Virus record (IMG/VR): IMGVR_UViG_3300036851_000807
Span: 1 to 45,977 of that record
Reading direction: 5' to 3' (one strand)
Source of the DNA: a virus
DNA: 45,977 bases
Every line of letters begins with the position of its first letter. Within the stretch, counting starts at the first letter, position 1. Positions 6,154 to 43,419 of the stretch are shown piece by piece. The notes beneath the pieces are model-generated. The model did not search any database. It saw only the letters and a program-made list of their open reading frames with translations, and was not told where the DNA came from. A program made the position numbers and the translations under genes.

Positions 6154-6160
6154 GACCCTT

Positions 6161-7488: not shown

Positions 7489-7664
7489 GCCAGCGTGGGA
7501 ACACCGAGCGGTTAGGCAGGAAGCGTCACCTCCAACATAAGGCCGGGCGATTCACGGACGGCTTCGCGCAGGGGTTCCGAGACGGCTGGAACGCAGCCAT
7601 CGCCGCCATGCGCCATAGATCCGCTCGCAGGAAGAAGCAGTCCACCAATCGCAAGGAGTCGTGA
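7485..7664 (+). CDS. Small basic protein related to its upstream neighbour
   Basis: 59 residues, ATG at 7485 with a 4-base overlap. Strongly basic at both ends (KRHLQHKAG; HRSARRKKQSTNRKES). The central FTDGFAQGFRDGWNAAIA resembles YTNGYTKGFERGRDTM of the previous protein, keeping the NG/DG, the GF and the following G in register. It could bind nucleic acid; function unknown. Confidence 0.55.
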   Translation: MSQRGNTERLGRKRHLQHKAGRFTDGFAQGFRDGWNAAIAAMRHRSARRKKQSTNRKES

Positions 7665-8014
7665 TGTTCCCGCCGCTCGATCTCGATCACCTGTTCAAGT
7701 ACCACACGCCGCGACCGGACCAGTTGCCGCGCTACGAGGAGATTCGCCGCTTCGGCAAAGCCTTCGCGAAGATCGTCGTCGAGAGCTGCCCGCCTGGACC
7801 CGACACCACGACGGCGGTGCGGAAGATTCGCGAGGCAGTGATGACGGCCAACGCTGCCATCGCGCTCGAACCGGCGCCGACGCAGGCCACGCCGTCGACG
7901 ATCGCAGCACTCGTCGATTCAGGTTGGCACGAGACGGCCGCGCGTCTCATCGTCGAGGGCGACGTGCTCGAACCGGCTCCAGCGGTGGCCCCTAACGAGG
8001 CGAGCACGAGCTAG
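7664..8014 (+). CDS. Acb2/Tad1-like cyclic-nucleotide sponge (anti-CBASS candidate)
   Basis: 116 residues from ATG 7664, with AAGGAG at 7653-7658 (5-base spacing); GTG 7661 is an alternative. Residues 11-68 match the recalled pattern of the Acb2/Tad1 hairpin family: FKYHTP (11-16), a first helix with RYEEIRRFGKAFAKIV (23-38), a turn CPPGPDT (42-48), then KIREAVMTANAAIAL (54-68). Family members are small oligomeric helical-hairpin proteins that bind cyclic oligonucleotide second messengers and so block CBASS, and in some cases Thoeris, signalling. A 48-residue tail after the hairpin is extra and of unknown role. It sits in the late operon between the small and large terminase genes. Family assignment is fairly confident; ligand and activity are inference. 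Confidence 0.7.
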   Translation: MFPPLDLDHLFKYHTPRPDQLPRYEEIRRFGKAFAKIVVESCPPGPDTTTAVRKIREAVMTANAAIALEPAPTQATPSTIAALVDSGWHETAARLIVEGDVLEPAPAVAPNEASTS

Positions 8015-9802
8015 TTGGCTACCTCCACGATGGGCGCGGGCGAGTCTGTCCTCTACGACGTGTGGGGGCAGGCTCGCTCTTTCGGTTCTGACGCTCCCAT
8101 TGAGTTCGACGAGAACGGTGTCGACGCAGCTATTGCGCGGTTCGCAGCTCGCCCCATGCCCGATCTCGAATACAAAGCGAAGGGCATCATCGCGTGGGCG
8201 GTCGACATCATGGGCGTGCCCGAGCACACGCTGCGCTGGTCGCTGAACCCCGGCTATCAGTACCGCGAGAAGTGGGACGGCACGCCTGACCCGCTGGTCG
8301 CTATCGCTGAAGCGATCGAGGCAGGGAAGGACTTCGCCGCTGAGTCGGGCACCGGCACTGGCAAGACGTTCTTCATGGCGATCTGCGCCCTGTGGTTCTT
8401 CGTCTGCCACGAGAACGGGCTGGTCGTCACGAGTGCGCCGATCGAGAAGCAGCTCGTCACGATGCTATGGAAGGAGATCGGCCGTCAGTGGCCGCGCTTC
8501 CATGCCCACTATCCGACGTGCGGTTACGCGCACCTGCGCGTGTTCGCCAACCCGCAGGCCGAGGACCGCGACGCTTGGGCGATCATCGGGTGGGCGTGCG
8601 GTGTCGAGGCGAACAAGGAGTCGGCGACGCGTGCGCAGGGCTTCCACGCTGAGAACATGATGATTCTCACGGAGGAAACGCCCGGCATTCCGATCCCGAT
8701 CCTCACGGCGTTCCAGAACACGCTAGGTGAGGGCAACAACCTCATTGGATCGGTGGGAAATCCCGATCACTCGATGGACGCGCTTCACGTGGCTGCGACG
8801 TCGCCGGGTGTGGTGGCTATTCGTATCTCGGTGCTGGACCATCCCAACTTCGTGCTCGATCGTGTGGTCGTGCCCGGTGCGGCAGGTCGCAAGGCAGAGG
8901 CGCGACGCAAGGCGAAGTATGGTGAGAACGCGCCGATGTACGACTCCCGCGTGCGTGGCATCTGCCCCACGGAGTCCGTGTACGCGCTCATCAAGCTCGA
9001 ATGGGTGCGAGCTGCACAGGAACGGTGGAAGCGCGCTATGGCGCCGAACGCGACCGACGAGGACCGTCGCGTTATGCAGGGCTTCCCCGGAATCGGGGTC
9101 GACGTAGCGCAGTCGGAGAACGGCGACCTCGGCGTCCAGGCGGAGGGCGTGGGTGCGTGCCTCCTCGAGCTGGAGGCGAAGCAGTGCCCGAACGCGACGG
9201 ACCTCGGTACAGAGGTACACCTGCGAATGCAGCGGGTGAAGTGCCGTCCTGAGCATGTAGGAGTGGACCCCATCGGCCCAGGCGCTGCAACGGTCAACGA
9301 ATTGGATCGCCTGACGATGGCGAGCAAGGCTGTTGTGCAGCGTCTGAACGGTGGGGTTCCCCCATTCAAGCACACGCAGCGGGCACCGGACGGCGAGATG
9401 TACGACTGGGCGCCTGACGCGAATCAATTCTTCAACCTTCGCGCGCAGATGCACTGGCAGTTTCGCGAGGATCTCCGAACGGGAGAGATCGCGCTGGTGC
9501 CCGACGAGAGGTTCACGACCGAGTGCATCACCGTGCAATGGAAGCCGGTCGCCGGTCTCGTGCGCGTCGAGGAGAAGGCGGAGCTCAAGAAGCGACTCGG
9601 TGGCAAGAGCCCCGACCGACTCGACGCCGCGATCAACTGGAACTGGGTACGTCGTCGTCGCACCGATCGGCTCAAGCCGAAGAAGGAGGATCCGCACACA
9701 TCAACGCGTGATCTCGCACGGATGCCTCACGAGACGATCGACTCGGAGGAGTACGACGACCACGCGCAGGGACCGGCGCAATTCCTCGGGGGTGGCTGGT
9801 GA
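8015..9802 (+). CDS. terL: Terminase large subunit (packaging ATPase/nuclease)
   Basis: 595 residues from a TTG immediately after the previous stop; ATG 8030 is a possible alternative start. The protein drives DNA into the procapsid and cuts the concatemer. The ATPase domain shows Walker A SGTGTGKT at 111-118 and Walker B MMILTEE at 215-221 with the catalytic glutamate. The C-terminal RNase H-like nuclease shows acidic residues in order: Asp363 (GVDVAQSENGD), Asp418 (VGVDP) and Asp534/Asp537 (SPDRLDAAINW). Length is normal for a large terminase. Its stop overlaps the next GTG (GTGA). Confidence 0.9.
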   Translation: MATSTMGAGESVLYDVWGQARSFGSDAPIEFDENGVDAAIARFAARPMPDLEYKAKGIIAWAVDIMGVPEHTLRWSLNPGYQYREKWDGTPDPLVAIAEAIEAGKDFAAESGTGTGKTFFMAICALWFFVCHENGLVVTSAPIEKQLVTMLWKEIGRQWPRFHAHYPTCGYAHLRVFANPQAEDRDAWAIIGWACGVEANKESATRAQGFHAENMMILTEETPGIPIPILTAFQNTLGEGNNLIGSVGNPDHSMDALHVAATSPGVVAIRISVLDHPNFVLDRVVVPGAAGRKAEARRKAKYGENAPMYDSRVRGICPTESVYALIKLEWVRAAQERWKRAMAPNATDEDRRVMQGFPGIGVDVAQSENGDLGVQAEGVGACLLELEAKQCPNATDLGTEVHLRMQRVKCRPEHVGVDPIGPGAATVNELDRLTMASKAVVQRLNGGVPPFKHTQRAPDGEMYDWAPDANQFFNLRAQMHWQFREDLRTGEIALVPDERFTTECITVQWKPVAGLVRVEEKAELKKRLGGKSPDRLDAAINWNWVRRRRTDRLKPKKEDPHTSTRDLARMPHETIDSEEYDDHAQGPAQFLGGGW

Positions 9803-13777: not shown

Positions 13778-14089
13778 ATGGGAACCCTCGCGGTGTGCGT
13801 CGTCGTGCTCGCGCTCTGGAGTAGCGCGCGTCCGCTCCTTGAGCGGTTGATCGCGGTGCTCGAAGCACGGACGGCGCACGCCACGAAGGCGGTGACACCT
13901 CTCGAGGAGATCGTTGTCCCCGAGGACTTGATCCGGCTCGCCAAACGCGAATCCGAGGAATGGGCGCAGGAGCAGGCGCTCCGCGCGATGCGCGACGCCT
14001 TCCGGCAGGAGACCGGGACGACCGAGGAACGGTGGGCACGCGTGCGACTCCAGTTCCGAATTGCACTCATGAGTGAGGGCGCTGCCTAA
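13778..14089 (+). CDS. Hypothetical protein with an N-terminal hydrophobic segment
   Basis: 103 residues. Residues 2-15 (GTLAVCVVVLALWS) form a hydrophobic segment; the remainder is helical and charged (RLAKRESEEWAQEQALRAMR), possibly a coiled coil. It ends 1 base before the portal start, with its TAA in a GCCTAAC motif. It might be a membrane-anchored helical protein made late; no family recognised. Confidence 0.6.
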   Translation: MGTLAVCVVVLALWSSARPLLERLIAVLEARTAHATKAVTPLEEIVVPEDLIRLAKRESEEWAQEQALRAMRDAFRQETGTTEERWARVRLQFRIALMSEGAA

Positions 14090-14090
14090 C

Positions 14091-16259
14091 ATGGCGACCA
14101 GTCTCGTACCGTACGCAGCACCCGAAGAAGGTGGGATGGTGGCTTCCGAGGAGGAGCCGCTCGACGTCGACTTCGAGATCGAGGACGACGACGACGAGAC
14201 GAAGCGCCGTGGCATGGAAGCCATGTACGGCCCGGCGTTCCCGCTCCTGAAGGACGAGCCGACGCCTGACGACTGGGTGCGGTGGGCGCAATGGCTGTGG
14301 GACTCGCGACGCGAGAGCGTCGCTGCGCGCCTGCACGCCGTCGAGCGCAATCGTCTCATGCGCGACGAGATTCACTGGATCAGCGCGAACGGCTTCGGGC
14401 CGTGGCGCCCGCCTCCGGGGCCGAAGGACGCGGTGCGCTACGTCCACAACATGATCACGCCCGCGCTCGATCAGCGGTTGGAGATTCTCGTCGAGCAGCG
14501 GCCCGGCTTCCGAGCGACGCCGACGCGCCAAGACCCTGACGCCATGAAGAAGGCGGAAGGGCAGCAGATGGCGCTCGAATACCAGTACAACGAGCAGGGC
14601 ATGGAGGACGTGCTCCGCGAGATGGGCTACTGGGTCGGCACCGATGGCGTCGCGTTCGGCTACACCAACTGGGACACCGAGTGCGGGCCGTGGCATGAGA
14701 CCATGACCGTGGGCGGGAAGCAGCATCAGTTCCAGCTCGGTGATCCGCGCACGCGGGTGTTCCGCATCGAGCAGGTTCGCGTGAGCCCGAACGCCACGTC
14801 GACCGAGAAGCCCTACTGGTGGGTGACGCGCGAGGAGGTGCCGCTCGGCCAGGCGGTGGCGGAGCACGGCGAACAGGTCGTCGAGGCGTTAGGTGGCGGG
14901 GCCGAGAGCGACTCGGGAATGCAGGAACGCAGCAACGACATCCGCGATCGCTACGGCGCCACCGACATGACGGATATGTGGGCCGATACCGAGACGACCG
15001 AACGGTTTATGGTCATCGTCGAGCGATCGGAGTACATGCCCGAGGGGTGTCAGCTCGTCGTGGTCGGGAACGCGGTGGTGTTCGAGCCTGCTCGCCTCGT
15101 CATGGGTCGCTGCCCGATGTGGCGCATGACCGATGGCTCTGCCGATCCGAGCTTCTACCCGAAGCCGAAGATGGAGCAGTGGATTTCCCCGCAGATGGCG
15201 ACGAACGCGGCGATCTCCAAGTGGATCGAGAGCGTGCGACGCAACGCCGGTGGGCAACTGCTGACGCGTGCGGGTGCCGTCTCGGTCGATACGCTGGTCG
15301 CGGGGCTCATGCAGATCATCGAGGTGACGGGCACTGGGCGCCCGATCGCCGAGGACGTGCAGCAGCTGCCGGGGATCACGATCGGCCAGGACACGATCAA
15401 CCTCATCGCGCTACTCATCAAGTCGTTCGAGGATAAGAGCGGGTGGAACGACACGAGTCGCGGCAGCTTCAGCGCGAGCGCGTCGGGCCGCTCGATCCTC
15501 GCGACGCGTGAGGCGTTGGAGAAAATCTTCGCCCCGGGTGTGAACGCCGCAGCGAAGGCGATGACCGAGTGGGCGAAGATCACGCTGCACTGGATGGCGT
15601 GGGGCTACGATCTCCCGCGCACGATCGCCCTGACGGGCCGTGGTCGACCGGACCTCGCCCGCGAGCTGTCGTCGGACGACTTCGATGGCGTGTGCGACGT
15701 GTTCATCGATCCCGAGACGCTCATGCCGATGCCGCGTGCGTTGCGGTTGTTCTTGCTCGACTCGCTGTTCGAGAAGGGCGCGATCGGGTTGCAGGAGTAC
15801 CGACGCCGGATGCCGTTCGCGTTCGTGCAGTCGATCGACACGCCGGACTCGGATCACTCAGCGCGAGCCAAGCGCGTCGTCGAAGCGCTCAAGCGTGCGG
15901 CGCGCGGCGAGCCGATCATGGTCCCGCCGATGCTGTGGCAGGACAACGAAGCGATCCACCAGGACGTGCTCGAGCGCGATTTGATCCTCGACGACAACGC
16001 GGACCCGAACGCGCGGAACCTCGCCAACCAGCGGTGGATGGAGCTGGCGAATCAGCAGGCCATGAAGATGGGGATGCAGGCGCCTGTGCCCGCACCGTCG
16101 CCTAACGGCGGCGGCAAGAGCAGCGGCATGTCCCCGCAGTCCCAACCGTTCCTCGGCACCCGGCCGTCGATTGCTGCGTCCTCTGCCTCTCAGATGAGTG
16201 GCGGTGCGGCCGACCAGCAGCGCGCCGGTGCCTCCTTTGACGCCATGAGCCCGCAGTAG
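14091..16259 (+). CDS. Portal protein
   Basis: 722 residues from ATG 14091 (an in-frame GTG at 14073 is less likely). The portal forms the dodecameric DNA gate at one capsid vertex. Length and build suit podovirus portals of about 700 residues: acidic N-terminus, VRWAQWLWDSRRE, the wing region DEIHWISANGF, HNMITPALDQRLEILV, and a later long helix region around GRSILATREALEKIFAPG followed by TEWAKITLHWMAWGYD. The C-terminus is Gln/Ser/Gly-rich and likely disordered. It lies between appendage genes and the scaffold/capsid pair, the normal order. Assignment rests on length, recalled pattern and context. Confidence 0.8.
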   Translation: MATSLVPYAAPEEGGMVASEEEPLDVDFEIEDDDDETKRRGMEAMYGPAFPLLKDEPTPDDWVRWAQWLWDSRRESVAARLHAVERNRLMRDEIHWISANGFGPWRPPPGPKDAVRYVHNMITPALDQRLEILVEQRPGFRATPTRQDPDAMKKAEGQQMALEYQYNEQGMEDVLREMGYWVGTDGVAFGYTNWDTECGPWHETMTVGGKQHQFQLGDPRTRVFRIEQVRVSPNATSTEKPYWWVTREEVPLGQAVAEHGEQVVEALGGGAESDSGMQERSNDIRDRYGATDMTDMWADTETTERFMVIVERSEYMPEGCQLVVVGNAVVFEPARLVMGRCPMWRMTDGSADPSFYPKPKMEQWISPQMATNAAISKWIESVRRNAGGQLLTRAGAVSVDTLVAGLMQIIEVTGTGRPIAEDVQQLPGITIGQDTINLIALLIKSFEDKSGWNDTSRGSFSASASGRSILATREALEKIFAPGVNAAAKAMTEWAKITLHWMAWGYDLPRTIALTGRGRPDLARELSSDDFDGVCDVFIDPETLMPMPRALRLFLLDSLFEKGAIGLQEYRRRMPFAFVQSIDTPDSDHSARAKRVVEALKRAARGEPIMVPPMLWQDNEAIHQDVLERDLILDDNADPNARNLANQRWMELANQQAMKMGMQAPVPAPSPNGGGKSSGMSPQSQPFLGTRPSIAASSASQMSGGAADQQRAGASFDAMSPQ

Positions 16260-17444: not shown

Positions 17445-18761
17445 ATGGCTGCCGATCCCACTGAAATCACCGATACCGAGATTTCGGGCTTGCTCAAGCG
17501 AGCCTACTCGGATTTCCGTACCGACACGTTCCCCCAGGTGTGCGCGCTGTTGGCGTCGCTCAAGAAGGGGAAGCGTGGCGGGCCGGGACGCCTGCGCTGG
17601 ACCGGCGAAGGCGTTCGCGGCGACGCTGTACTCACCCGGCCGTTAGGCATGACGGCCTCGCAGTCCGGCTATTTCCCGTCCAACCACATCCGGAAGGAGC
17701 GTCAGTTCGAGCTCGGCATTCGCCGGTTGTACGTGACGCGCGAGCTGGACGGCCTCACGATCGTCGGGACGAAAGACCCGAAGGGCGCCTACATCTCGAT
17801 CGTGAAGAAGGCGCTACAGGAAATGAAGGACGCTGCCAAGCTCGGGATGCAGGAAGTCCTGCACGGCAACGGGCAGGGCATCAAGGGTGTCATCACCACG
17901 GCGACGAGCGCGACGTCGATCATCATCTCGAGCCCGTTCGGCCTGTCTGGCGCGGGTGAGGGTGGCTTGCTCGTCGACGAAGGGCTCGAAGTCGCGGCGA
18001 TCGACGTCGACACCGCCAACGCGGTGCTCGGACGTGCGCGGATCACGGCAGTCGTCAACAGCGGTGACTTCGCGACGCTCACGCTCGCGGGTGCTGGTAT
18101 CACCGGCATGGAAGTCGGCGACTATCTCGTCAGCTGCTCGGCGAGCGACACCGCGTTCGAGCAGAACCCGCACGGCTTGCTCGAAATCCTCAACCGAGGC
18201 GCGGCGTACAACAGCTTCCTCGGGATCGATGCGGCCACCGATCCGCGGTGGAACGCGACCACGATGACGGCGGGCACCGACACGCCGAGCGCGGCTCGTG
18301 TGACGGAATCCGACATCATCCGCCTCATCAAGAAGGTGGCGGCGCGGTCGGGCTTCGACGCGAAGGAGAAGCCGGGCGACTTCCTGTTGCTCACCACGCC
18401 CGGTCTCGAAATCCGGATCGCCGAGACGTTCCTCGGTTCGCGGACGATCACGCCGCAGCAGATGATGGACATTCCCGGCGGCTTCAAGGCCGTGAACATC
18501 CAGAACATTCCGCTGATCTCGGATCACTACTGCCCGGCCGGGACGGTGTACCTGCTCCATCTGCCCACGCTGTTGTGGGTGGACGCGAAGGACTTCGGCT
18601 TCATCTCCTTCGAAGGTGCAGGGCCGTGGCGTTGGATCGACGGACGGGACGCCTACCAGACGAACTGGGGCGCGTACCTGAACGTTGGCGCTCGCCAGCG
18701 CAACTCGCACGGCATGATCACTGGGTACGAGGACACCGAGCGGTTCTCGCACGTCATGTAG
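17445..18761 (+). CDS. Major capsid protein
   Basis: 438 residues, ATG 17445. It follows the scaffold gene and has the features of an HK97-fold coat protein: an N-arm with RAYSDFRTDTFPQV, a long helix region (YISIVKKALQEMKDAAKLGM), a beta-rich insert (about 165-215), and a C-terminal part with GAYLNVGARQRNSHGMITGY. No protease gene was seen, so scaffold removal without cleavage is likely. A hairpin after the stop (18777-18803) may set the ratio to downstream genes. Confidence 0.75.
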   Translation: MAADPTEITDTEISGLLKRAYSDFRTDTFPQVCALLASLKKGKRGGPGRLRWTGEGVRGDAVLTRPLGMTASQSGYFPSNHIRKERQFELGIRRLYVTRELDGLTIVGTKDPKGAYISIVKKALQEMKDAAKLGMQEVLHGNGQGIKGVITTATSATSIIISSPFGLSGAGEGGLLVDEGLEVAAIDVDTANAVLGRARITAVVNSGDFATLTLAGAGITGMEVGDYLVSCSASDTAFEQNPHGLLEILNRGAAYNSFLGIDAATDPRWNATTMTAGTDTPSAARVTESDIIRLIKKVAARSGFDAKEKPGDFLLLTTPGLEIRIAETFLGSRTITPQQMMDIPGGFKAVNIQNIPLISDHYCPAGTVYLLHLPTLLWVDAKDFGFISFEGAGPWRWIDGRDAYQTNWGAYLNVGARQRNSHGMITGYEDTERFSHVM

Positions 18762-25460: not shown

Positions 25461-26402
25461 ATGGCGATCGACTGGGACACGATCCTGAGCGCACTCTCGG
25501 GCGGCGTGCAGGGTGGAATGCGCGGCTACGCGCAGGGCGAGGAGCTACGCTCGAACCGGCAGCGCGACGATCTCGCACGCCAACGCGAGCAGCGCGAGCA
25601 GAATGCCGACTTCGACCAAGCCAACTATCGCGCGAGTCAGGCACTCAACGAGGCCAACGCCGGGTTCGACAAAAAGCAGGACGCGACGGCGAAGCGTGGT
25701 CGGCTCGCGAAGGGCAACCGCGCGATCCTCGCGACGACGCCGGAAGGGAAGGCCGCGATCGATGCGTTAGGTGCCAACGCCGACGACGTGCTCGGGGAGT
25801 ACGAGGGCTCGGCGATCGACGACATCCTGCGGAACCTGCGCCCACCGCCACCGAAGCGCGAGCCGATCGACCGATTCTCGCCCGAAGGCGTCGCCGCGCA
25901 ACAGCAGATCGACACCGAGCGGGCGAAGCTGCGAACGAAATACCCGACCCCTCGCGCGAACAGTGGGAACGAGGACCGCACGGCGATCACGTCGTTGCTC
26001 GGTGGACTCAACTCACAGATCGACGACGCGCGTTCGGACGTCACGCGACTGAGCAAGCCGATCAGAGAGGCGGCCGAGGCCGGGGTCGACGTCGAGGCCG
26101 CAGACACGGCGGGCCTGGGCGACGCGCGCTCGCGCATGACGACGCTCGGCGGGCAGAGGGACATGGCAACGAAGGCGCTGATGCAGTCGAATCCGGTGCT
26201 CGCGCGACTGTTCGCGTCCGACTCGGCGGGTGCTGCACCGCCGCCGCCGGTCACGCCACCGCCTGCGGGATTCCAGCGGCAAGGCCCGCCGCGTGGCGTC
26301 GCGCAGCCGTTAGGCGAGAAGGAGAAGTTCAAGGCGCGGAGTGATCCGAAGTTCCGCGCGTTCCTCATGCGGAACGGCTACACCGATGGGGATTGGAAGT
26401 GA
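25461..26402 (+). CDS. Internal virion (ejection) protein candidate 3
   Basis: 313 residues with GGGAG 5 bases upstream of the ATG. The N-terminus (MAIDWDTILSALSGGVQGGM) is amphipathic; residues 28-90 are a highly charged, Gln/Arg-rich helix (RQRDDLARQREQREQNADFD); the centre has further helices (AITSLLGGLNSQIDDARSDV) and a Pro-rich linker near 255-285. The C-terminal DPKFRAFLMRNGYTDGDW looks like a short docking motif. It overlaps the giant gene by 4 bases. Role inferred from composition and neighbours. Confidence 0.55.
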   Translation: MAIDWDTILSALSGGVQGGMRGYAQGEELRSNRQRDDLARQREQREQNADFDQANYRASQALNEANAGFDKKQDATAKRGRLAKGNRAILATTPEGKAAIDALGANADDVLGEYEGSAIDDILRNLRPPPPKREPIDRFSPEGVAAQQQIDTERAKLRTKYPTPRANSGNEDRTAITSLLGGLNSQIDDARSDVTRLSKPIREAAEAGVDVEAADTAGLGDARSRMTTLGGQRDMATKALMQSNPVLARLFASDSAGAAPPPPVTPPPAGFQRQGPPRGVAQPLGEKEKFKARSDPKFRAFLMRNGYTDGDWK

Positions 26403-29400
26403 CCGGGCCGATCAACTGGCTCGCTGAGTACGAGCGGCACGAGGAGGAGGAGCGTCGACGCGCGGCCGCGCATCCGCTCGTCACGCCGTCAGCTCGCGCC
26501 GAAGATGCTGGACCGACTGGAAAGCCGGATTGGTTGGCGGAGTTCAGCGCAGCCGAGGGGCCGCGTCGTCTCCCGCCTGCCGTCGTCATGGCGGAGCCGC
26601 CGCGATTCCCGATTCCGACGTTGCCGCCTGCCGTCGTGCAGGCCACTCCGCCCATCGAGCAACCGTTCACGGAGCCCGGTGGCGGTGGCGCGTCGTGGGA
26701 CGACTCGGGCGAAGGGTTCCTCTCGAACCTTGGCTCGGGACTCTACCGTGGGATCCGCAAGGATTTGCCTGAGCAAGTCGGGAACGTGTTGCAGATGTTC
26801 GGCGGCAGTGGCCTGAACCGCGACATCCCCGGCACGGTGCTGCCGATGGCCGGGCGCGCACTCGAGCAATTCGGGAACGAGGCGCCTGACGTGCAGCCGC
26901 GCGTCGGAACGATCGGCGAGGCGGTGCAGTCGCCGTCCGCAGCTCGCGACTACCTCGGCTACCAGATCGGCAACGTGGGCGCGTCGTCGCTCCCGTCGTT
27001 GCTAGCCGCGATCGTGGGCGGGCCGATTGGCGCGACCGCAGCGAGCTACGTGCAGAACACCGGCGACGTGAGGCAGGAGCTGGAGGACTCGGCGCCTAAC
27101 ACGGAGCCCTCGACGCGCGACGCGATCGCGGCGTTGCTCGGCGTGCCCCTCGCGGCGCTCGATCAAGTCACGGAGTCTCGACTCGGTGGGAAGGTCGCGA
27201 AGGCGATCGGCGGGAAGCTCGCGACGAGTGCCGCTGAGCGTGGCGTCGTCGGGACGGCGAAGCGCGTGGCGAAGGAAGTCGGCAAGAGCACGCTGTCGGA
27301 AGGCGTCACCGAAGCGGCGCAGGAAGGCGTCCAGTACCTCGGTGTGCGCGGCGCGACGGGCCAGCCGATCAAGGCGCGCGAGTTGGGAAGCCGGATGCTG
27401 GAGGCGGGCGTTGCTGGCGCTGTGGGCGGTGGCGCGATGGGTGGCGCGACCGAGACGGTGGCCGCAGGAACGGAGGCGCTCCGCTCGCGGCTCAAGCCGC
27501 GTCAGGCAGAGCCGCCAGTCACGCCTGCGCCGATCGTTGACGCGGACGGACGCGATCGCTCGATGCTCGATGCTCGACTCGCGAAGCGTGAGGAACATCG
27601 GGTGAAGGCGCCCGCGCCTGAGATCGACCACGAGTCGGCGCGCGCGGTGCTCGATCGTCGACTGAAGCCGAAGGCGCCAACAACGCCTGACGAGTTGCCG
27701 ATCGCACCGTACACCCCTCACGTGGAGCAGGACAACCGCACCGAGGAGGAGAAGGCCGCACACCGCGCGCGCGTCGGTGGCGAGCTACCGAGTGAACGCC
27801 GGACGCGTCTCGAACGCGAGGCCGTCACGCTCAAGAGCGGCGACGTCGTGGTCGACGAGCAGGGCCAGCGTCATGCGTTCGACGGGTTCGCGCTCCAGAA
27901 CGAGGCACATCCCGACGACGTGACCGTCCTATTCGGCTCGCGCCGTGAGAACGGTCAGATGGTGCGCGAGTTCATTCACGGCAGTACCAGCGGATTCGGC
28001 GAGTTCGAGATCGAGAGGAAGGGCACGGCGACGGAGCCCGCGAAGGCACCCGAGGCGAAGGAGCAGCGCCACGCTGAGCCCGCACAGGCAGGCATCACGG
28101 TCACAGACGAGAGCTTCCATAAGGGCAAGCCAGCGTTCAAGGTGCTGCGCCACGTCGACGACACCGGCAAGGTGCTCGGCGAATTGCGGCTGTACATGAA
28201 CGAGGATGGCACCAGCTCCGGCCAGAGCGTATTCATCGAGAAGGAGCACCAGCGAAAGGGCATCGGTACCGCGCTCTATCGTGAGGCCGAACGGCTTGGA
28301 TTCGACCCGTTGAGCAATACGGGGAAGTCGTCACCGCTCACAGAGGCAGGAAGGGCGCTCACTGACAAGCTCCGCGCGGCGAAGGAGCCAACGAAAGCAC
28401 CGCCACCGAAGAAGCTGGAGATCAACCCGGACTCGCGTTATGCGGGCGAGGAGAACCCCGAGGCGTTGTTCGACGGCTCGGTGGAGCAGGCGCGCGCGCA
28501 CTACAACGACGTGCTCTCCCTCAACGCCGTGCTGGACTCGGGGAAGAAGGCGAACGGCCGGAAGCTGACGCCGAAGGAAGTGACCGAGGCCCGTACGTTG
28601 CGCCAGCAGAGGCAAGACCTTTACCAGTCGACGCTCGGTGAGATCGAGAGCGCGTTCGGGAAAGAGGGACGCGAGCGCGCGAAGTCACTCATCGTGAAGC
28701 CCGCGCCGACACCCCCTTCCGAAAGAGCCCCCTCGAAAGAGGAGGCGAAACCGGAAGCGGCGATCGAGGAGGAGGCGCCGAAAGCTCCGACTCCAATCAC
28801 GAAGGGCACGATGGTTCGCCTGCCCGATGGAAGGGTCGGGCGAGTGTGGACGCTGAAGGACAACGGAACGGCCGAAGTCCGAATGCAGGACGGCGGGATT
28901 CGCACCGCGCACGTCAGCACACTGAAGACCCCGCAGCCTGGCGACGCGAAGCCGAGGGCGGTGACGCCGCAGATCGTGCCGGACGCCTCGAAGGATGTCG
29001 GCCACGTCTTGCCGTCATTCGTCAACGCGCAACGACGCGGCGGCGAGAACCCAAGCACAGGAGTTGCGAATGCGAGCAGCGCACCAGATACTCAGTCAGG
29101 CGACGACGCCGCGACGGTTGCAGGTACTACCGGGGAGCGCGCCGATGACACTCGGCCTGTTCGGGAAAGCGCACGAGGAGAGTCTCAGGGAGAACCGTCC
29201 CGAGGCGTATCAAGCCCTGCAACGGAACGGGACGCTGGCGAGCGTGGTGGCGGAGATCGACCGGGAAGCGCAGCAGACGTTCGAGTCGACGCTGGCCGCG
29301 CTCCTGAAGCAGCACCCGCCGACCGGGACGTACCTCGAGCGAGTCCAGCAGACCGACGCACTCGCGCAGCAGGCGAGGGAGCTGGTGATGGAGGACGTGA

Positions 29401-32400
29401 TCGTTCGGGAGCCAGACCCGGAGAACCCGACGCAGGCGGAGCCCAACGCCGACCGGCTGAGTCCAAGCCAGAACGACGCGACGTAGGCAGTAACTACCGC
29501 CTCACCGACGCCGACGCGATCGGCGCGGGTGGCGCGAAGGGCAAGGCGAGAGGGAACCTCGCCGCGATCCGACTGCTGAAGGAGATCGAGCGCGAAGGCC
29601 GACCGGCGACAGCCGAGGAGCAGGCGACGCTCGTGAAGTACGTCGGGTGGGGTGGAATCCCCCAGGCGTTCAGTCCTGACAACAAGGACTTCGGCCCGAT
29701 CGCGAAGGAACTGCGCGAGCTGCTCACCGACGAGGAGTACGCGGCGGCGCGCGCGTCGACGCTGAACGCGCACTACACGTCGGCCCCTGTGATCCGCGCC
29801 ATTCACGCGGGACTCGCGCGGCTCGGCCTAACGACCGGGCGCGCGCTGGAGCCGTCGATGGGCGTGGGCCATTTCCTCGGGCTCGGGCCGACGTCGTTGC
29901 AGTGGACGGGCGTCGAGCTCGACTCGATCACCGGCAGGCTCGCGAAGCTCCTCTACCCGCAGTCCGACGTGCAGGTGCGTGGCTTCGAGACGGTCGCGAT
30001 GCCGGACAATCTGTTCGACGTCGCGGTGGGGAACGTCCCGTTCGGCAACTTCGGCGTCACCGATCGCGCGTATCCGAAGGAAGTCACCGGGTCGATCCAC
30101 GACTACTTCTTCGCGAAGTCGCTCGATAAGGTGCGGCCCGGTGGGCTCGTCGCGTTCATCACGTCGTCGTTCACGCTCGACAAGCAGAGCGCGGCGATGC
30201 GGAAGTACCTCGGCGAGCGGGCAAACCTCGTTGCTGCGATCCGCCTCCCGAACACAGCATTCGCGGGGAACGCGGGGACTGAGGTCACGACCGATCTCAT
30301 TGTCCTCCAGAAGCGAGAGAAAGGAACGCCGCAGACCGGCGAGACGTTCGTCGACCGCGCGCACATCATGAGTGCTGGCGAGTCGATGTTCGTGAACGAG
30401 TACTACGCGCGGCACCCTGAGATGATGCTCGGGGAGATGCAGCTCGCGGGCACCATGTACCGCGACAAGGCGCCGACGCTCGTCGCTCCCGAAGGGCAGA
30501 ACATCGAGAAGGCGTTAGGTGAGGCGTTCGCGAAGCTGCCCGCTGGCATCTACAAGCCGCGCGCCATCGAGGCGCCTGGCACCCGCAACCCCGGCACCGC
30601 GGAGGCCGAGCTCGTCGGCACCGACGACGACATTCGCGAGGGTGGCTTCCTCGTGCGTGGCGGTCGGTTGCTCCAGCGCGAGGGGAACGAGTTCAAGGCG
30701 TCGAAGCTTGGGAAGGCCGCAGCGGAAAAGGTCTCGCAGCTCGTCGGCATTCGCGATGCGATCCACCGTGTGCTCCAGTCGCAATTCCAGAATCGGAGCG
30801 ACGAGGAGATCACCGCCGAACGCGCGGAGTTGAACCGGCTCTACGATCGGTTCGTGAAGGCGCATGGCCCGATCCGACGCGAGACGCGGACGGAGATCAA
30901 CCGCGAAGGCCGCGCCGAGCCGATCGTCGTCACGCGCTACCCGAACCTGCGCGACTTCCAGGCCGATCCCCGCTGGCCGCTCCTCATGGGGCTGGAGGAG
31001 TACGACGCCGAGACCGACACGGCGAAGAAGACCGACATTCTCCAGCGTCGGGTCATCGAGCCACGCAAGCCCGTCGAGAAGGTCGACACGCCAGCCGACG
31101 CGATCCCGGTGGTGCTCGCGGAGTCGGGCGCGTTCTCTCTCGAGCGAGTGGCGCAACTGTCGGGAACGACGATTGATGCAGCGCGCGAAGCGTTGCGCGG
31201 CGCGATCTACGAGAACCCGACGAGCGGCGTGTTCGAGACGCGCGATCAATACCTGTCTGGCAACGTCCGCACGAAGCTCGCCCAGGCACAGCGCGCAGCG
31301 AAGGGTGACCCTCGCTTCAACGAGAACGTCGAGGCGTTGAAAGGCGCGATCCCCGAGGACTTGCCGCCATCGAAGATCGGCGCGCAGCTCGGCGCACCGT
31401 GGATCCCCACTGAGACGATCGCGCAGTTCGTGCGGGATGTGTTCGGCGCGGGCAACGTAAAGGTGACGTATCTCGCGCGCGAAGCCACGTGGTCGGTCAG
31501 CTACGAGCCCCGCCAGCGCAGCAGCGCGGCGTCGACGACGGAGTTCGGGACCAAGCGCGCGTACGGCACCGAGCTATTGAGCGACGCGCTCAATCTCAAG
31601 CCGACCACGATCTACGATCCCGGCCCCGACGATACCCGCGTCAAGAACGTGCAGGAGACGCTCGCGGCGCAGGAGAAGCAGCAGAAGCTAAAGGACCGAT
31701 TCGCAACGTGGCTGTGGGAGGACGGCGCGCGGGCGACGGCGCTCGCTCGCCTGTACAACGACAGCTACAACAGCATCCGGCTGCGCGACTACGACGGCGC
31801 GCACCTCACGATGCCGGGGGCAGCGTCGCATGTGAACGGGAAGCCGTTCGGTCTGCGACCGCACCAGAAGAATGCCATCTGGCGGATTCTCCAGAGCGGC
31901 AACACGCTGCTCGCGCACGTGGTGGGCTCAGGCAAGACGTACACGATGGTCGCGGCAGGCATGGAGGCGAAGCGCCTCGGGCTCGCGCGGAAGCCGATGT
32001 ATGCGATCCCCAATCACATGCTCGGCCAGTTCTCGCGCGAGTTCCTCGGGCTCTACCCGACAGCGAAGCTGCTGGTGGCGACGAAGGAGGACTTCGCCAA
32101 GGATCGGCGGAAGGCGTTCACTGCACGTATCGCGTCAGAAAACTGGGACGCAATCATCATGACGCACCGCTCGTTCGAGTCGGTCGGCATGAGTCCCGAG
32201 TTCGAGCAGCAGTTCCTCGAACGGGAGCTTGGCGAGCTGGAGCAATCGATTCGCGAGGCGAAGGCCGCGAAGAACCACGACCTGACGAAGCTCATCGAGA
32301 AGGCGAAGAAGAAGCGGACGGCGCGACTCGACACCCTGCGCGCGGCGGAGAAGAAGGATGATCTCCTCCCGTTCGAGGCGCTTGGCGTCGACATGCTCTT

Positions 32401-35400
32401 TGTCGACGAGGCCGACGAGTTCAAGAACCTCAACATCACGTCGAAGCAGCAGGGACTGGGGCTCGAAGGCTCGCAGCGCGCCTTCGATATGTACATGAAG
32501 ACCCAGTATCTCGACTCGCTCAATCCGGGGCGCGGTGTCGTGTTCGCGACGGGCACGCCGATCGCCAACTCGGTGAGCGAGATGTACACCATGCAGCGGT
32601 ATCTCCAGCCGCGACTCATGGGAGAGCGGAGCGTCAGCCACTTCGACGGGTGGAGTGCGACGTTCGGCCAGATGGTGACCGGCATGGAGCTGGCGCCGGA
32701 CGGCAGCGGCTACCGGCAGTCGACCCGGTTCGCGCGATTCCAGAACATGGGCGAGCTGGCGCAGATGTTCCGCTCGGTCGCCGACGTGCAGACGAGCGAG
32801 ATGCTCAACCTGCCGCGCCCGAAGCTGGAGACGGGACAGGCTCAGGTCGTAGCGGTCCCCGCGACGTCGGCGCTCAAACGCTACGTGCAGACGCTCGTCG
32901 AGCGCGCGCGGAAGGTGAAGAACAAGGAGGTTGAACCGGACGAGGACAACCTGCTCAAGATCACCGGCGACGGGCGGAAGGCGGCGCTCGATCTCCGACT
33001 GGTCGGGCTCAGTGGCGGCGAGGGCTCCAAGACCAAGGTCGTCGAGGCGGCGTCCAAGATCGCGCGCATCTATAAAGAGACGACCGCGCTCAAGGGAGCG
33101 CAGATGGTGTTCAGCGATCTCGGCACGCCGAGCGACAAGTTCAACGTCTACGACGAGCTGCGCCTGCACCTCGAGCGGGAGGGCGTGAAGCCCGCAGAGA
33201 TTCGCTACATCCACGACGCCGACACGCAGGCGAAGAAAGACAAGCTGTTCGCGGACGTGAAGGCCGGACGCGTGCGCGTCGTGATCGGGTCGACGCAGAA
33301 GCTCGGCGCCGGGACCAACGTGCAGGATCGTCTCGTGGCGTTGCACCATCTCGATGCACCGTGGCGACCGCGCGACGTCGAGCAGCGCAACGGTAGAATT
33401 CTCCGACAGGGCAACCTGCTGTACGGGGACGCGACGACGCCCGACAGCGAGCGGAAGATTCCGCACGTGTCGATCTTCACGTACGTGACCGAGGGTTCGT
33501 TCGACGCCTACATCTGGCAGGGACTGGAGCGGAAGGCAGGCTTCATCACGCAGGCGCTGACGGCAGGCGTCGAGACGCGCGAGATCGACGACGTGGGCAC
33601 GGTGGAAGTCGACTGGGCGACGGCCAAGGCGATCGCGTCAGGCAACCCGAAGGTGTTGGAGAAGGCGACCATCGACGCCCAGGTGAGCAAACTGGAGCGG
33701 TTACGGCGCGCTCACCAAGACGACGTGTTCGGCGCGGGCCAGAAGATCAAGCTGCTGCCGATGGCGATCGCCGAGTCGAAGGAACGAGCCACCGCATTAC
33801 AGAAGGACGTCGACCAAGCCGAGGACACGGCGGGCGACAGGTACGCGATCACCATCGGCGGGAAGAAGTTCACGAAGCGAGCGGACGCAGGCGCCGAGTT
33901 GAAGAAGGTGCTCGATGCGTTCCTCGGCTCGGTCGCGTCGGTGCCGTTCGAGGAACGGAAGTCGATGTCGAAGAAGCTCGGCACGTTCGCCGGGTTCCCT
34001 CTCCACATCGAGGCGGATGGCTTCTCGATCACCGCGGCGCGGATGATCCTGAATGGCGAGGCGCAGCACGTGGCCGAGGTCACGGCGTCGGATAGCCCCA
34101 TGAGTCTCGCGTTGACGCTGGAGCACGCGCCGAAGGGCATCGCCACGCGGATCGCTCGCATCCATGACGGGATCGAGCAGAACGAGAAGAACCTCGCGCG
34201 ACTGAAGGAGCTGGTCGGCAAGCCCTACGAGCACGCGGCGAAGCTGGCGCAGTTGAAGGAGCGGCAGGCGGCGCTCGACACGGAGCTGCAGGCCGACGCG
34301 ACGCGCTCCGAGGCCGAGGCGAAGAAGGGCGGCGGCATGGTCGACGACTTCCTAACGAGTGAGGAGGGCGCGCTCAAGATCGGCGAGTTGGGTGACCGTC
34401 TGCGCCAGCGTCGACTCGATCGTGAGCCACTCGCCGTGTCGCAGATCGAGGAAGTCGAGGAGCGATTCCAGCGCGCGAAGGGAATCGCCACGCCGACGAT
34501 CCGCGATCGTGTTAGGCAGGCGATTGACGCGGTGAAGCGCGCGGGCCGTCACTTCCCGCACATGGACCCGTCGTCGTCGCCGCTGGCGGCGCGGACGAAC
34601 GAGCTGCTGCTCGAAGTGGAGCACGCGAAGCGCTACGCCGAGGCGATGGCGTACGACAAGATCGCTGCCGTGACGGACGGGTTGACTCAGGGCGAGGTCG
34701 ACCTGTTCACGCGAAAGCTGGTGCTCGACGATCTCATGAAGGACGTCGAGGCCGGACTCTACGAAGGGCGCGACGAGTTGCCGTTCGGGTATCCCGACGC
34801 GGCGGCGGTGCAGCGCGATCTCGATGAAGTCGAAGGCGCAGCCGCGAGTCGGCCGAAGGTCCAGCGTGCGATCGCCGAGCGACAGCGATTCGCGCAGGCT
34901 CTGACGCGTGCGCTGGTCGACGCCGAGCAGCTCAACCCGAAGGTGCTGGAGGACGAGCGGTACTATCACCGTCAGGTGCTCGATCACTTCAACGCGCTCG
35001 CGCATGGCCCGTTGCTCGGGCTCGGCGGTCGCGAGGCGCGCATCAAGCGGAAGGGATTCCAGAAGCAGCGCGTCGGCGGCGGTGACTTCAACACGCGCTA
35101 CCAAGAGGCGGAGTTCGAGTGGGTCGCCCAGGCGTACCGCATCCTGCACATGGTCGGCGCGCAGAAGGAGATTCGCCGTCTCGCGGACATTCAGCCGCAG
35201 TTGAAGGGGGAGGCCAAGAGTCTCAACCTCTCGCGCTACTATGAGAAGGAAGCTGCTGCAGCTGGAATTCCTGACGAGGACATGATCGGGAGCAATGATC
35301 CGCTCCAGCCGTTCAGGAAGCGCATGGGGATGGCGTCGTCGAAGATTCTGTCACTCGCGACGCAGGGGAAGCTCGACGCGCCACAGTACGACGCCGTGAT

Positions 35401-37462
35401 CGAGGCGATGGCCGAGGCGCACGCCGAGTGGAAAGCCGAGATGAAGGAGCGCGACCCCGACGACCGGGAGCCGTTCCGGTTCGATCATCCGCGCTACTTC
35501 GCTCTGCTGAACTACCTCGCGTCGAACGAGGGGCCGGGCGCCATGCCCGCTCGATCCTTCTTCAAGGCCATGCACGAGCGCGAGCAGGCGATTCGCGAGA
35601 CGCTCGGCACCGAGTATAAGGAATGGGAGGACGTGATCCCCGAGGGCTACACCAAGTGGCAGCCGGTGAAGGGCCAGTTCTTCTATCCCGCGCTGACGGT
35701 GCAGGAGCGGGCGCTCGATGCCGCGCTCGAGGGATCGTCGCGTCTTGACGAGGCGTTGCGCTCGGTGCTGGTGCTCGGTGGCCCGAAGGAGACGTGGGTG
35801 ATTCCCGACTACCTCGCGGCGACGATGGACAAGCTCGGCCAGCAGCGCGACATGAGCGCGGTGGAAGCTACGTGGGTCGGCGGGATGCGCTACTGGAAAA
35901 CGATCATGCTCCAGGCACCGACGCGCATCCTGAAATACATCTTCAACAACACGTCGGGCGATCTCGACGCCTCGATCATGTACCCGAAGGTGCTGAAGTA
36001 CGGGCCGGGTGCGGCGCGCGATCTGTTCACCTACATGGTGAAGCGACAGGGAAGTGACGCCCTGAAGCGCGAGATGCAGGAGGCGACGCGGCTAAGGGTG
36101 ATCGACCAAGGCCTAACGGTCGCGGAGATTCCCGACGTCAACGAGCTGCCCGCGTTCGAGCGGTTGGTTGCGTCCGACCCGTTGCACTTCATGGGGCTCG
36201 TGCAGAGCTACTTCAAGCACGCGCGCCTCGTGACGCAGCTGCGAGAGAACATTCTCCGACTCGCGGCATGGCGGCACTTCCGCGCCGAGCTACAGGCGGG
36301 CCGTTCGCCTGGCTTCGGTGCGTCGAACCCGGCGAGCGTGAACGCGCAGACGTCGCCAGCAGGGAAGGCGGCGGTGCTCGCCCGCGACTTGTTAGGCGAC
36401 TACGGCGCGGTGTCGAGCGGTGGCATGTTCATTCGCGACCGCGCGATCCCGTTCTACTCGTGGATCGAGATCAACGCCAAGCGGTACGTGAATCTGTTCC
36501 GCAACATCTCGAAGGAAGGGCACTCGGGCGGTCGGCTCGCTGGCGCAGGAGCGGCGCGGCTCGCGGTGGCCGGGGCAGGCGTCGTGTTCCGCGCGAATGT
36601 GTTCTTCCTGCTCGTGAACCTGTGGAACCACCTGTTGTGGCCGGACGAGGAGGACGAGCTGCGCGGCACCGACGCGCGCACGCTGCATCTGATTCTCGGC
36701 CGAGACGACGACGGGCGCGTCCGTACGGTGCGGATCGAGGGCGCGTTCGCCGACTTCCTCGAGTGGGTGAACCTCTCGGACTACCCGTCTGACATCGCCG
36801 ATCTCGTGAAGGGCACGAAGTCACTGGCCGACCAATTCGTCGAGGGCGCCGAGGGTCCGATCAACCGAGTGATCAACTCGTGGGAGCCGGTGACCAAGAC
36901 GGCGGCGGAGCTGCTGACGGGGCGGAGCATGTACCCGAACGCCTTCAAGCCACGTGTCGTGCGCGATCGCGGCGGGCAGGCGGCGCGCGCGGTGACGTTA
37001 GGCTGGCTCTACGACAAGGTGACGGACAAGCCGATGCGACCGGGCAATCTGGCGACGGACCTGTTGCTCTACCGCACCGATCCCGGCGAGGCGGCGTACT
37101 TCCGCGTGCGCGAGAAAGCAGGCGACTGGCTGGAGCAACAGAACAAAGGGCGCAACCTGGGGAACCCGACCAAGAAGGAGAACGCGCTCTACTACTGGCG
37201 GAAGTCGTTGCAGTGGGGCGAGCCCGAGAAGGCCGAGCGCTGGCTCCAGCGGTACTACGCACTCGGTGGAACGCGGAAGTCGGCAGTGGGGAGCATCAAG
37301 CGGGCCGCTCCGCTGTCGCCGATCGCGGTGCACGACCGACGCCGGTTCCTGGCGTCGCTGACTCCGGAGGAACGCGAGTCGTTGACGCTCGCGGAGCAGT
37401 GGTACCAGCGCACCTATCATGGCGTGCGCCCGTCTCGCCCGGCTGCGGCGAGTGACCGATAG
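26399..37462 (+). CDS. Giant polyvalent virion protein with GNAT-like, DNA-methyltransferase-like and SNF2-like helicase modules (DarB-type)
   Basis: 3687 residues from GTG 26399 (GTGA overlap; TTG 26393 is an alternative). Modules in order: amphipathic, partly hydrophobic N-terminus (to about 360); GNAT-like acetyltransferase domain at about 560-660 with QRKGIGTALY; SH3-like domain at about 800-846; disordered linker at about 871-1031; N6-adenine-methyltransferase-like domain at about 1032-1314 with EPSMGVG (1151-1157) and NVPF (1212-1215) in place of NPPF; SNF2-like helicase at about 1800-2420 with GSGKT (1843-1847), DEAD (2003-2006), ATGTP and QRNGRILRQG around 2329-2338; coiled coil at about 2420-2645; and a long virion-type C-terminus with a membrane-like segment near 3386-3415. 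P1 DarB, an ejected antirestriction protein, shares the methyltransferase-helicase pairing. The last of a run of ejection-type genes, it is probably injected with the DNA. Activities are predicted only. Confidence 0.75.
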   Translation: MTGPINWLAEYERHEEEERRRAAAHPLVTPSARAEDAGPTGKPDWLAEFSAAEGPRRLPPAVVMAEPPRFPIPTLPPAVVQATPPIEQPFTEPGGGGASWDDSGEGFLSNLGSGLYRGIRKDLPEQVGNVLQMFGGSGLNRDIPGTVLPMAGRALEQFGNEAPDVQPRVGTIGEAVQSPSAARDYLGYQIGNVGASSLPSLLAAIVGGPIGATAASYVQNTGDVRQELEDSAPNTEPSTRDAIAALLGVPLAALDQVTESRLGGKVAKAIGGKLATSAAERGVVGTAKRVAKEVGKSTLSEGVTEAAQEGVQYLGVRGATGQPIKARELGSRMLEAGVAGAVGGGAMGGATETVAAGTEALRSRLKPRQAEPPVTPAPIVDADGRDRSMLDARLAKREEHRVKAPAPEIDHESARAVLDRRLKPKAPTTPDELPIAPYTPHVEQDNRTEEEKAAHRARVGGELPSERRTRLEREAVTLKSGDVVVDEQGQRHAFDGFALQNEAHPDDVTVLFGSRRENGQMVREFIHGSTSGFGEFEIERKGTATEPAKAPEAKEQRHAEPAQAGITVTDESFHKGKPAFKVLRHVDDTGKVLGELRLYMNEDGTSSGQSVFIEKEHQRKGIGTALYREAERLGFDPLSNTGKSSPLTEAGRALTDKLRAAKEPTKAPPPKKLEINPDSRYAGEENPEALFDGSVEQARAHYNDVLSLNAVLDSGKKANGRKLTPKEVTEARTLRQQRQDLYQSTLGEIESAFGKEGRERAKSLIVKPAPTPPSERAPSKEEAKPEAAIEEEAPKAPTPITKGTMVRLPDGRVGRVWTLKDNGTAEVRMQDGGIRTAHVSTLKTPQPGDAKPRAVTPQIVPDASKDVGHVLPSFVNAQRRGGENPSTGVANASSAPDTQSGDDAATVAGTTGERADDTRPVRESARGESQGEPSRGVSSPATERDAGERGGGDRPGSAADVRVDAGRAPEAAPADRDVPRASPADRRTRAAGEGAGDGGRDRSGARPGEPDAGGAQRRPAESKPERRDVGSNYRLTDADAIGAGGAKGKARGNLAAIRLLKEIEREGRPATAEEQATLVKYVGWGGIPQAFSPDNKDFGPIAKELRELLTDEEYAAARASTLNAHYTSAPVIRAIHAGLARLGLTTGRALEPSMGVGHFLGLGPTSLQWTGVELDSITGRLAKLLYPQSDVQVRGFETVAMPDNLFDVAVGNVPFGNFGVTDRAYPKEVTGSIHDYFFAKSLDKVRPGGLVAFITSSFTLDKQSAAMRKYLGERANLVAAIRLPNTAFAGNAGTEVTTDLIVLQKREKGTPQTGETFVDRAHIMSAGESMFVNEYYARHPEMMLGEMQLAGTMYRDKAPTLVAPEGQNIEKALGEAFAKLPAGIYKPRAIEAPGTRNPGTAEAELVGTDDDIREGGFLVRGGRLLQREGNEFKASKLGKAAAEKVSQLVGIRDAIHRVLQSQFQNRSDEEITAERAELNRLYDRFVKAHGPIRRETRTEINREGRAEPIVVTRYPNLRDFQADPRWPLLMGLEEYDAETDTAKKTDILQRRVIEPRKPVEKVDTPADAIPVVLAESGAFSLERVAQLSGTTIDAAREALRGAIYENPTSGVFETRDQYLSGNVRTKLAQAQRAAKGDPRFNENVEALKGAIPEDLPPSKIGAQLGAPWIPTETIAQFVRDVFGAGNVKVTYLAREATWSVSYEPRQRSSAASTTEFGTKRAYGTELLSDALNLKPTTIYDPGPDDTRVKNVQETLAAQEKQQKLKDRFATWLWEDGARATALARLYNDSYNSIRLRDYDGAHLTMPGAASHVNGKPFGLRPHQKNAIWRILQSGNTLLAHVVGSGKTYTMVAAGMEAKRLGLARKPMYAIPNHMLGQFSREFLGLYPTAKLLVATKEDFAKDRRKAFTARIASENWDAIIMTHRSFESVGMSPEFEQQFLERELGELEQSIREAKAAKNHDLTKLIEKAKKKRTARLDTLRAAEKKDDLLPFEALGVDMLFVDEADEFKNLNITSKQQGLGLEGSQRAFDMYMKTQYLDSLNPGRGVVFATGTPIANSVSEMYTMQRYLQPRLMGERSVSHFDGWSATFGQMVTGMELAPDGSGYRQSTRFARFQNMGELAQMFRSVADVQTSEMLNLPRPKLETGQAQVVAVPATSALKRYVQTLVERARKVKNKEVEPDEDNLLKITGDGRKAALDLRLVGLSGGEGSKTKVVEAASKIARIYKETTALKGAQMVFSDLGTPSDKFNVYDELRLHLEREGVKPAEIRYIHDADTQAKKDKLFADVKAGRVRVVIGSTQKLGAGTNVQDRLVALHHLDAPWRPRDVEQRNGRILRQGNLLYGDATTPDSERKIPHVSIFTYVTEGSFDAYIWQGLERKAGFITQALTAGVETREIDDVGTVEVDWATAKAIASGNPKVLEKATIDAQVSKLERLRRAHQDDVFGAGQKIKLLPMAIAESKERATALQKDVDQAEDTAGDRYAITIGGKKFTKRADAGAELKKVLDAFLGSVASVPFEERKSMSKKLGTFAGFPLHIEADGFSITAARMILNGEAQHVAEVTASDSPMSLALTLEHAPKGIATRIARIHDGIEQNEKNLARLKELVGKPYEHAAKLAQLKERQAALDTELQADATRSEAEAKKGGGMVDDFLTSEEGALKIGELGDRLRQRRLDREPLAVSQIEEVEERFQRAKGIATPTIRDRVRQAIDAVKRAGRHFPHMDPSSSPLAARTNELLLEVEHAKRYAEAMAYDKIAAVTDGLTQGEVDLFTRKLVLDDLMKDVEAGLYEGRDELPFGYPDAAAVQRDLDEVEGAAASRPKVQRAIAERQRFAQALTRALVDAEQLNPKVLEDERYYHRQVLDHFNALAHGPLLGLGGREARIKRKGFQKQRVGGGDFNTRYQEAEFEWVAQAYRILHMVGAQKEIRRLADIQPQLKGEAKSLNLSRYYEKEAAAAGIPDEDMIGSNDPLQPFRKRMGMASSKILSLATQGKLDAPQYDAVIEAMAEAHAEWKAEMKERDPDDREPFRFDHPRYFALLNYLASNEGPGAMPARSFFKAMHEREQAIRETLGTEYKEWEDVIPEGYTKWQPVKGQFFYPALTVQERALDAALEGSSRLDEALRSVLVLGGPKETWVIPDYLAATMDKLGQQRDMSAVEATWVGGMRYWKTIMLQAPTRILKYIFNNTSGDLDASIMYPKVLKYGPGAARDLFTYMVKRQGSDALKREMQEATRLRVIDQGLTVAEIPDVNELPAFERLVASDPLHFMGLVQSYFKHARLVTQLRENILRLAAWRHFRAELQAGRSPGFGASNPASVNAQTSPAGKAAVLARDLLGDYGAVSSGGMFIRDRAIPFYSWIEINAKRYVNLFRNISKEGHSGGRLAGAGAARLAVAGAGVVFRANVFFLLVNLWNHLLWPDEEDELRGTDARTLHLILGRDDDGRVRTVRIEGAFADFLEWVNLSDYPSDIADLVKGTKSLADQFVEGAEGPINRVINSWEPVTKTAAELLTGRSMYPNAFKPRVVRDRGGQAARAVTLGWLYDKVTDKPMRPGNLATDLLLYRTDPGEAAYFRVREKAGDWLEQQNKGRNLGNPTKKENALYYWRKSLQWGEPEKAERWLQRYYALGGTRKSAVGSIKRAAPLSPIAVHDRRRFLASLTPEERESLTLAEQWYQRTYHGVRPSRPAAASDR
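29070..29486 (+). CDS. Nested (overprinted) gene inside the giant gene, TnpV-like protein
   Basis: 138 residues in a different frame of the same strand, entirely inside the giant gene's disordered linker. ATG 29070 has AGGAG 6 bases upstream; a second candidate, ATG 29145, has GGGGAG 7 bases upstream. The protein looks globular and helical: HEESLRENRPEAYQAL, then NGTLASVVAEIDREAQQTFE, and QQARELVMEDVI. This recalls the TnpV family (short proteins with LRExRPxxY, GxL and IDxxA elements). By hand count over 29145-29483, third codon positions are about 88% GC in this frame but only about 42% GC in the giant frame, so codon selection acts on this small gene. Function unknown. Confidence 0.7.
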   Translation: MRAAHQILSQATTPRRLQVLPGSAPMTLGLFGKAHEESLRENRPEAYQALQRNGTLASVVAEIDREAQQTFESTLAALLKQHPPTGTYLERVQQTDALAQQARELVMEDVIVREPDPENPTQAEPNADRLSPSQNDAT

Positions 37463-43170: not shown

Positions 43171-43419
43171 ATGGCGACGAGCGCAGTCTCGATGCAGGAC
43201 ATAGAGAAGAAGGGAGCGGCGTTGACCTGGGTGCAGGTGCAGGCTCTCCTGCCGAAGCGGATCGACGGTGAGGCCTACACCGAAGCGTTCACCCGCGAGT
43301 TCATGCGGAAGAACGGCGGGTGGATGTTCGCGCGGACGCTGTATCTCTACGAGGCCGACTTCGCGACCGCGCTCGCATCGCTCATCACGCAGCCTGTGGC
43401 CGAGGACGACGCAGCGTGA
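43171..43419 (+). CDS. Small hypothetical protein upstream of the integrase
   Basis: 82 residues, ATG 43171 with a GGAGACGGAG-type leader. Predicted alpha/beta or helical (ALTWVQVQALLPKRIDGEAY; REFMRKNGGWMFARTLYLYE). It overlaps the integrase start by 4 bases. A helix-turn-helix resembling excisionases is not convincing, though the position would suit a recombination directionality factor. Function unknown. Confidence 0.5.
   Translation: MATSAVSMQDIEKKGAALTWVQVQALLPKRIDGEAYTEAFTREFMRKNGGWMFARTLYLYEADFATALASLITQPVAEDDAA

Follow-up and report, generated by a model that had tools for sequence, protein, structure and literature searches.

The gene at positions 7664–8014 of the IMG/VR viral contig IMGVR_UViG_3300036851_000807 (45,977 bases, from an uncultured phage; this whole stretch was analysed and is called the window below) encodes a protein that, judged by its sequence, is a member of the PF24729 (Acb2_Tad1_hairpin) superfamily and is neither Acb2 proper nor Tad1 proper. 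Its hairpin domain is predicted with high confidence, and key positions of the known ligand pocket and of the hexamer interface are conserved. The protein is probably a hexameric nucleotide sponge, with a ligand site that differs from those of its characterised relatives.

Table 1. Positions of the hairpin gene, its parts and other genes in the window
Feature	Positions	Strand	Evidence or remark
Gene for Acb2/Tad1-hairpin protein	7664..8014	+	PF24729, phrog_1454, phrog_31113, SD AAGGAG
Hairpin domain, residues 12–67	7697..7864	+	PF24729; end of FxYHxP N-tail, helix 18–41, helix 46–67
Tyr13	7700..7702	+	Equivalent to cGAMP-stacking Tyr8 (T4 Vs.4) / Tyr11 (Acb2); alignment A3, VIA-align
Arg28	7745..7747	+	Equivalent to Lys23 (Vs.4) / Lys26 (Acb2)
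C-terminal extension, residues 68–116	7865..8011	+	Helices 77–85 and 89–98, loose tail (AlphaFold2)
Large terminase subunit	8015..9802	+	phrog_2, E = 9.5e-14
Portal	14073..16259		phrog_156
Major head protein	17445..18761		phrog_14242
Giant DarB-like ORF	26393..37462		phrog_10089, 1714 bits
RecE/YqaJ-type exonuclease	40574..41596
Tyrosine integrase	43320..44549

Membership of the PF24729 superfamily

The initial annotation had assigned the protein to the Acb2/Tad1 hairpin family from its motifs, and both of those that it quoted are found in the ORF: FKYHTP at residues 11–16 and REAVMTANAAIA at residues 56–67. The assignment is borne out by the profile search that had been proposed as its check. 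Residues 12–67 match positions 1–57 of the 58 in PF24729 with 41.4 bits (E = 1.6e-10), far above chance and above the gathering cut-off of 27 bits; a second scan, in DNA coordinates, gave 42.2 bits over the hairpin domain. As a control that PF24729 does stand for Acb2, Acb2 proteins were fetched and run against the model, scoring 54–73 bits, and intermediate phage proteins reached 47–86 bits. The Acb2 query sequence served solely for fetching real loci and PDB entries. In the PHROG scan, the protein matched phrog_31113 (E = 5e-15) and phrog_1454 (E = 6e-15), both listed as function unknown, and gave no match to PHROG 717, which is Acb2 proper. No PADLOC or NCBIfam model matches it.

The sequences closest to the window protein form a clade marked by FxYHxP and VMTANA motifs. 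A profile of this clade and the intermediates, containing no Acb2 or Tad1, was searched against 177,635 PDB sequences. The top match was 9ptq, ‘Acb2 homolog 43’ (E = 3.4e-4, 23.7 bits); six distinct Tad1 chain sequences (E = 0.3–1) and T4 Vs.4 (E = 0.5) matched weakly, and sponges made up 8 of the 11 rows. With Acb2 rows added to the profile, the Tad1 chains appeared at E = 0.05–0.2. The intermediates were needed, as neither a single-sequence phmmer search of the PDB nor the narrow clade profile A1 found a sponge chain. The same dependence is seen in hhalign comparisons: the intermediates align with Acb2 at P = 4e-6 and with the window clade at P = 3.5e-24, and an Acb2 HMM run on the window did not find the hairpin protein. 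Since the direct comparison of the clade with Acb2 alone is not significant, the connection between the two runs via the intermediates and Pfam. Pfam, the Acb2-free PDB search and the residue mapping described below together support the family call.

Within the superfamily, the window protein most resembles the phage hairpins of PHROG 1454 and PF24729 (Mycobacterium phage Myrna gp211, and proteins from Paenibacillus and Gordonia phages), with which it has FxYHxP, Arg28 and a VMxANAxIA helix in common. Most of these stop right behind the hairpin (68–87 residues), whereas the window protein continues for 48 more; Myrna gp211 also has a longer C-terminal part, with no similarity to this tail. With Acb2 (T4 Vs.4 and the PaP2 and PaMx33 proteins; PHROG 717), it shares the Pfam model, the hairpin register, the tyrosine (Tyr8/Tyr11), the basic residue 15 positions further on and the hexamer-interface positions, but differs in having Ala for Arg79, Arg for Thr68, a shorter loop between the helices and no PHROG 717 match. 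The two substitutions are the grounds for placing it outside Acb2 and Tad1 proper. Its second helix is like that of Tad1 (SRENACALTHVEEALMWMN against the family consensus), a likeness that is weak by itself (E = 0.05–0.3 to Tad1 chains in profile searches). The N-terminal β domain of Tad1, which helps to form the gcADPR pocket (PMC12043709), is absent from the window protein, whose hairpin begins after just 11 residues. ‘Acb2 homolog 43’, for which no paper was found, has a hairpin of similar length and six chains in its PDB entry; it lacks complete FxYHxP and VMTANA motifs.

Predicted fold, pocket and hexamer interface

An AlphaFold2 monomer model based on an alignment of 39 sequences gives the fold of PF24729, two long antiparallel helices behind a short N-tail. 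Residues 1–17 are coil, and pLDDT is mostly above 90 in both helices. When the model was submitted to Foldseek, Vs.4 and Acb2 chains took 5 of 22 rows, none of them significant alone, as expected for a plain two-helix hairpin. In VIA-align, the model fits Vs.4 (7uq2) with Z = 6.1 over 60 residues at an rmsd of 4.1, and the Acb2 entries 8h2j and 8h2x with Z = 5.1–5.2; Z values of 5–6 are common for this fold and are reached equally by unrelated hairpins, so the value of the superposition lies in its register. Residues 13–72 fall onto 8–87 of 7uq2, with Tyr13 on Tyr8, and sequence alignment A3 gives the same register. Tad1 chains were absent from the second look with VIA-align, an absence that does not exclude Tad1.

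In Vs.4, Tyr8 and Phe82 stack on cGAMP, which is also bound by His11, Lys23 and Arg79; the hexamer is made by Leu29, Ala66, Ala73 and Ala77, and mutation of Tyr8 or of these four residues abolishes activity or assembly (PMC10097602). These positions were compared across 68 clade members and 18 Acb2 proteins. The stacking tyrosine, the basic residue and the four interface positions are all kept or conservatively replaced in the alignment. The basic residue, Arg28 in the window protein, is Arg in 67 of 68 clade members and Lys in all 18 Acb2 proteins, and the interface equivalents are Phe34 (Leu29), Ala51 (Ala66), Ala58 (Ala73) and Ala62 (Ala77).

The remaining pocket positions differ. His11 corresponds to Pro16 and Phe82 to Ala67; neither loss is informative, because most Acb2 proteins also have other residues there (Leu and Ala, respectively). 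The position of Ser74 is occupied by Val. Arg79 is invariant in Acb2 (18/18) and is replaced by Ala64 in the window protein and by Ala throughout the clade (68 of 68). Thr68, retained in most Acb2 proteins and intermediates, is Arg53 in the clade, a clade-specific change; in Vs.4, mutation of Thr68 to Met lowers binding (PMC12657230). The comparison thus suggests an unchanged scaffold, probably an unchanged hexamer too, and a re-built ligand site whose ligand may be other than cGAMP. As the invariant Arg79 contact of Acb2 has become Ala and the N-terminal β domain of Tad1 is absent, the sequence does not point to a particular CBASS or Thoeris signal.

These substitutions also bear on the strongest alternative, in which a hexamer of the same fold binds a nucleotide outside CBASS and Thoeris, for instance a host second messenger or a linear oligonucleotide, and retunes host physiology instead of blocking defence. 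The loss of the Arg79 contact and the clade-specific Arg53 would suit such a ligand, as would the very wide distribution of the family in phages and its many gene contexts. The known pocket nevertheless keeps its tyrosine and basic residue, the nearest solved relative was named an Acb2 homolog by its depositors, and the characterised superfamily members bind immune signals (PMC12043709, PMC10097602); this alternative is considered unlikely.

Genomic setting and relatives

The ORF has 116 codons for 116 residues, with ATG at 7664 and TAG at 8012–8014; an alternative GTG start at 7661 would give 117 residues. The Shine–Dalgarno sequence lies 6–11 bases 5' of the ATG and forms a good ribosome-binding site, and the ORF in front ends in a stop codon that overlaps with this start. 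The large terminase ORF (595 codons) follows the stop codon with zero gap. Given this and the portal and major head genes downstream of it (Table 1), the hairpin gene stands at the opening of a tailed phage's packaging and head module. The earlier placement between two terminase genes therefore holds on the downstream side; upstream, the PHROG scan offers as small terminase just ORF 6125–6655, with a weak HTH match (E = 0.005).

Several small ORFs lie in the same region. Positions 6646–6864 encode a 72-residue membrane-type protein (phrog_2421, E = 2e-19) with a weak resemblance to NMN transporters; phrog_2421 was not found in the records of hairpin relatives, in a search whose positive control gave no signal either. 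The adjacent ORFs 7300–7488 and 7485–7664 have a Gly-Phe-rich helix motif in common (NGYTKGFERGRD and DGFAQGFRDGWN) and are perhaps tandem copies that have diverged.

Relatives of the hairpin protein were confirmed in 146 cases in IMG/VR and in 88 phage records; bacterial assemblies from Planctomycetota, Acidobacteria, Geobacteraceae and others also contain relatives. The EAVMTANA motif is near-invariant in the first (IMG/VR) collection, an invariance that is partly built in, as the motif was among the search patterns; in the phage matches and the intermediates this region varies (VMWANASIA and others). No sister phage was detected through the large terminase, either with patterns searched against IMG/VR, none of which matched, or among seven records of hairpin relatives.

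The position beside the large terminase raises the possibility that the protein belongs functionally to the terminase operon, with an accessory role in packaging or regulation, and that its helical hairpin is incidental. A large terminase was detectable in 20 of the relatives' records; six of these carry the hairpin gene on the same strand at most 3 kb upstream of the terminase gene, against about 1.2 expected randomly; the enrichment is a hint only, because related phages are not independent and a position inherited by shared ancestry would yield the same figure. Other members adjoin DNA primase and single-strand binding protein genes or tRNA genes, are found near an amidase or a portal gene, or lie far from the terminase. 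Such varied contexts argue for a mobile accessory gene rather than a part of the packaging machinery, and the profiles tie the protein to Acb2 and Tad1; a packaging role is very improbable. Least credible of all is a degenerate hairpin that has lost ligand binding: some Vs.4 pocket residues are absent, but they are the same ones throughout the 68 clade sequences and the domain is strongly conserved, which indicates a clade under constraint.

In one relative (L133, 1282–1701), the hairpin is fused behind an N-terminal piece with a likeness, by eye, to a segment of HAD-type phosphatases. Fusions of this kind may explain the annotation ‘phosphomannomutase’ given to hairpins that stand alone in Paenibacillus and Brevibacillus phages.

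Proposed function

As a hexameric sponge, the protein would assemble in six copies as in Vs.4 and Acb2, via the Ala-lined faces of both helices (Phe34, Ala51, Ala58 and Ala62). The assembly would hold host-made nucleotide immune signals, cyclic di- or trinucleotides or their relatives, and Tyr13 and Arg28 would form part of the binding site. The signals would be sequestered uncut, host suicide effectors would thereby not be switched on, and the phage would be protected.

A more specific and tentative proposal concerns the whole FxYHxP/VMTANA clade. It would be a large branch of stand-alone hairpin sponges in which the pocket has been re-built (Ala for Arg79, Arg for Thr68, and conserved His14 and Arg56) to capture something different from cGAMP, perhaps a signal so far undescribed; in the window protein, the tail would supply a second function. 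The comparison ties PHROG 1454, a very common phage family of ‘unknown function’, to the superfamily of nucleotide sponges and identifies the positions at which ligand choice in the clade should be decided. Should the clade's ligand prove to be an unusual signal, the wide occurrence of the clade would suggest that the bacterial alarm in question is equally common. Sponge proteins of this type are themselves the trigger sensed by Panoptes defence (PMC12657218).

The C-terminal extension of 48 residues described in the initial annotation is present (48–49 residues). Folded alone and with no alignment, it forms much the same helices, with pLDDT of about 90. The GC values at its three codon positions are 73/59/78 (63/46/85 for the hairpin), a composition compatible with coding, though less clearly than that of the hairpin. 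The C-terminal 48 residues gave no relatives in phages, no Pfam match and, with the tail alone, no significant Foldseek match.

A giant antirestriction-type protein had also been reported for this contig, and the ORF is indeed there: it has 3689 codons, with the phrog_10089 (DarB-like) match in the central part, and contains helicase and methyltransferase stretches. By annotation, the contig thus has two genes of counter-defence type. The ‘multi-layered counter-defence’ derived from them goes beyond the evidence, as the DarB-like label is a family annotation alone; the two genes might serve a joint strategy. The giant ORF also has a GNAT acetyltransferase domain near residue 575. Further along the contig lie genes for a RecE/YqaJ-type exonuclease and a tyrosine integrase (Table 1), which make the phage probably temperate.
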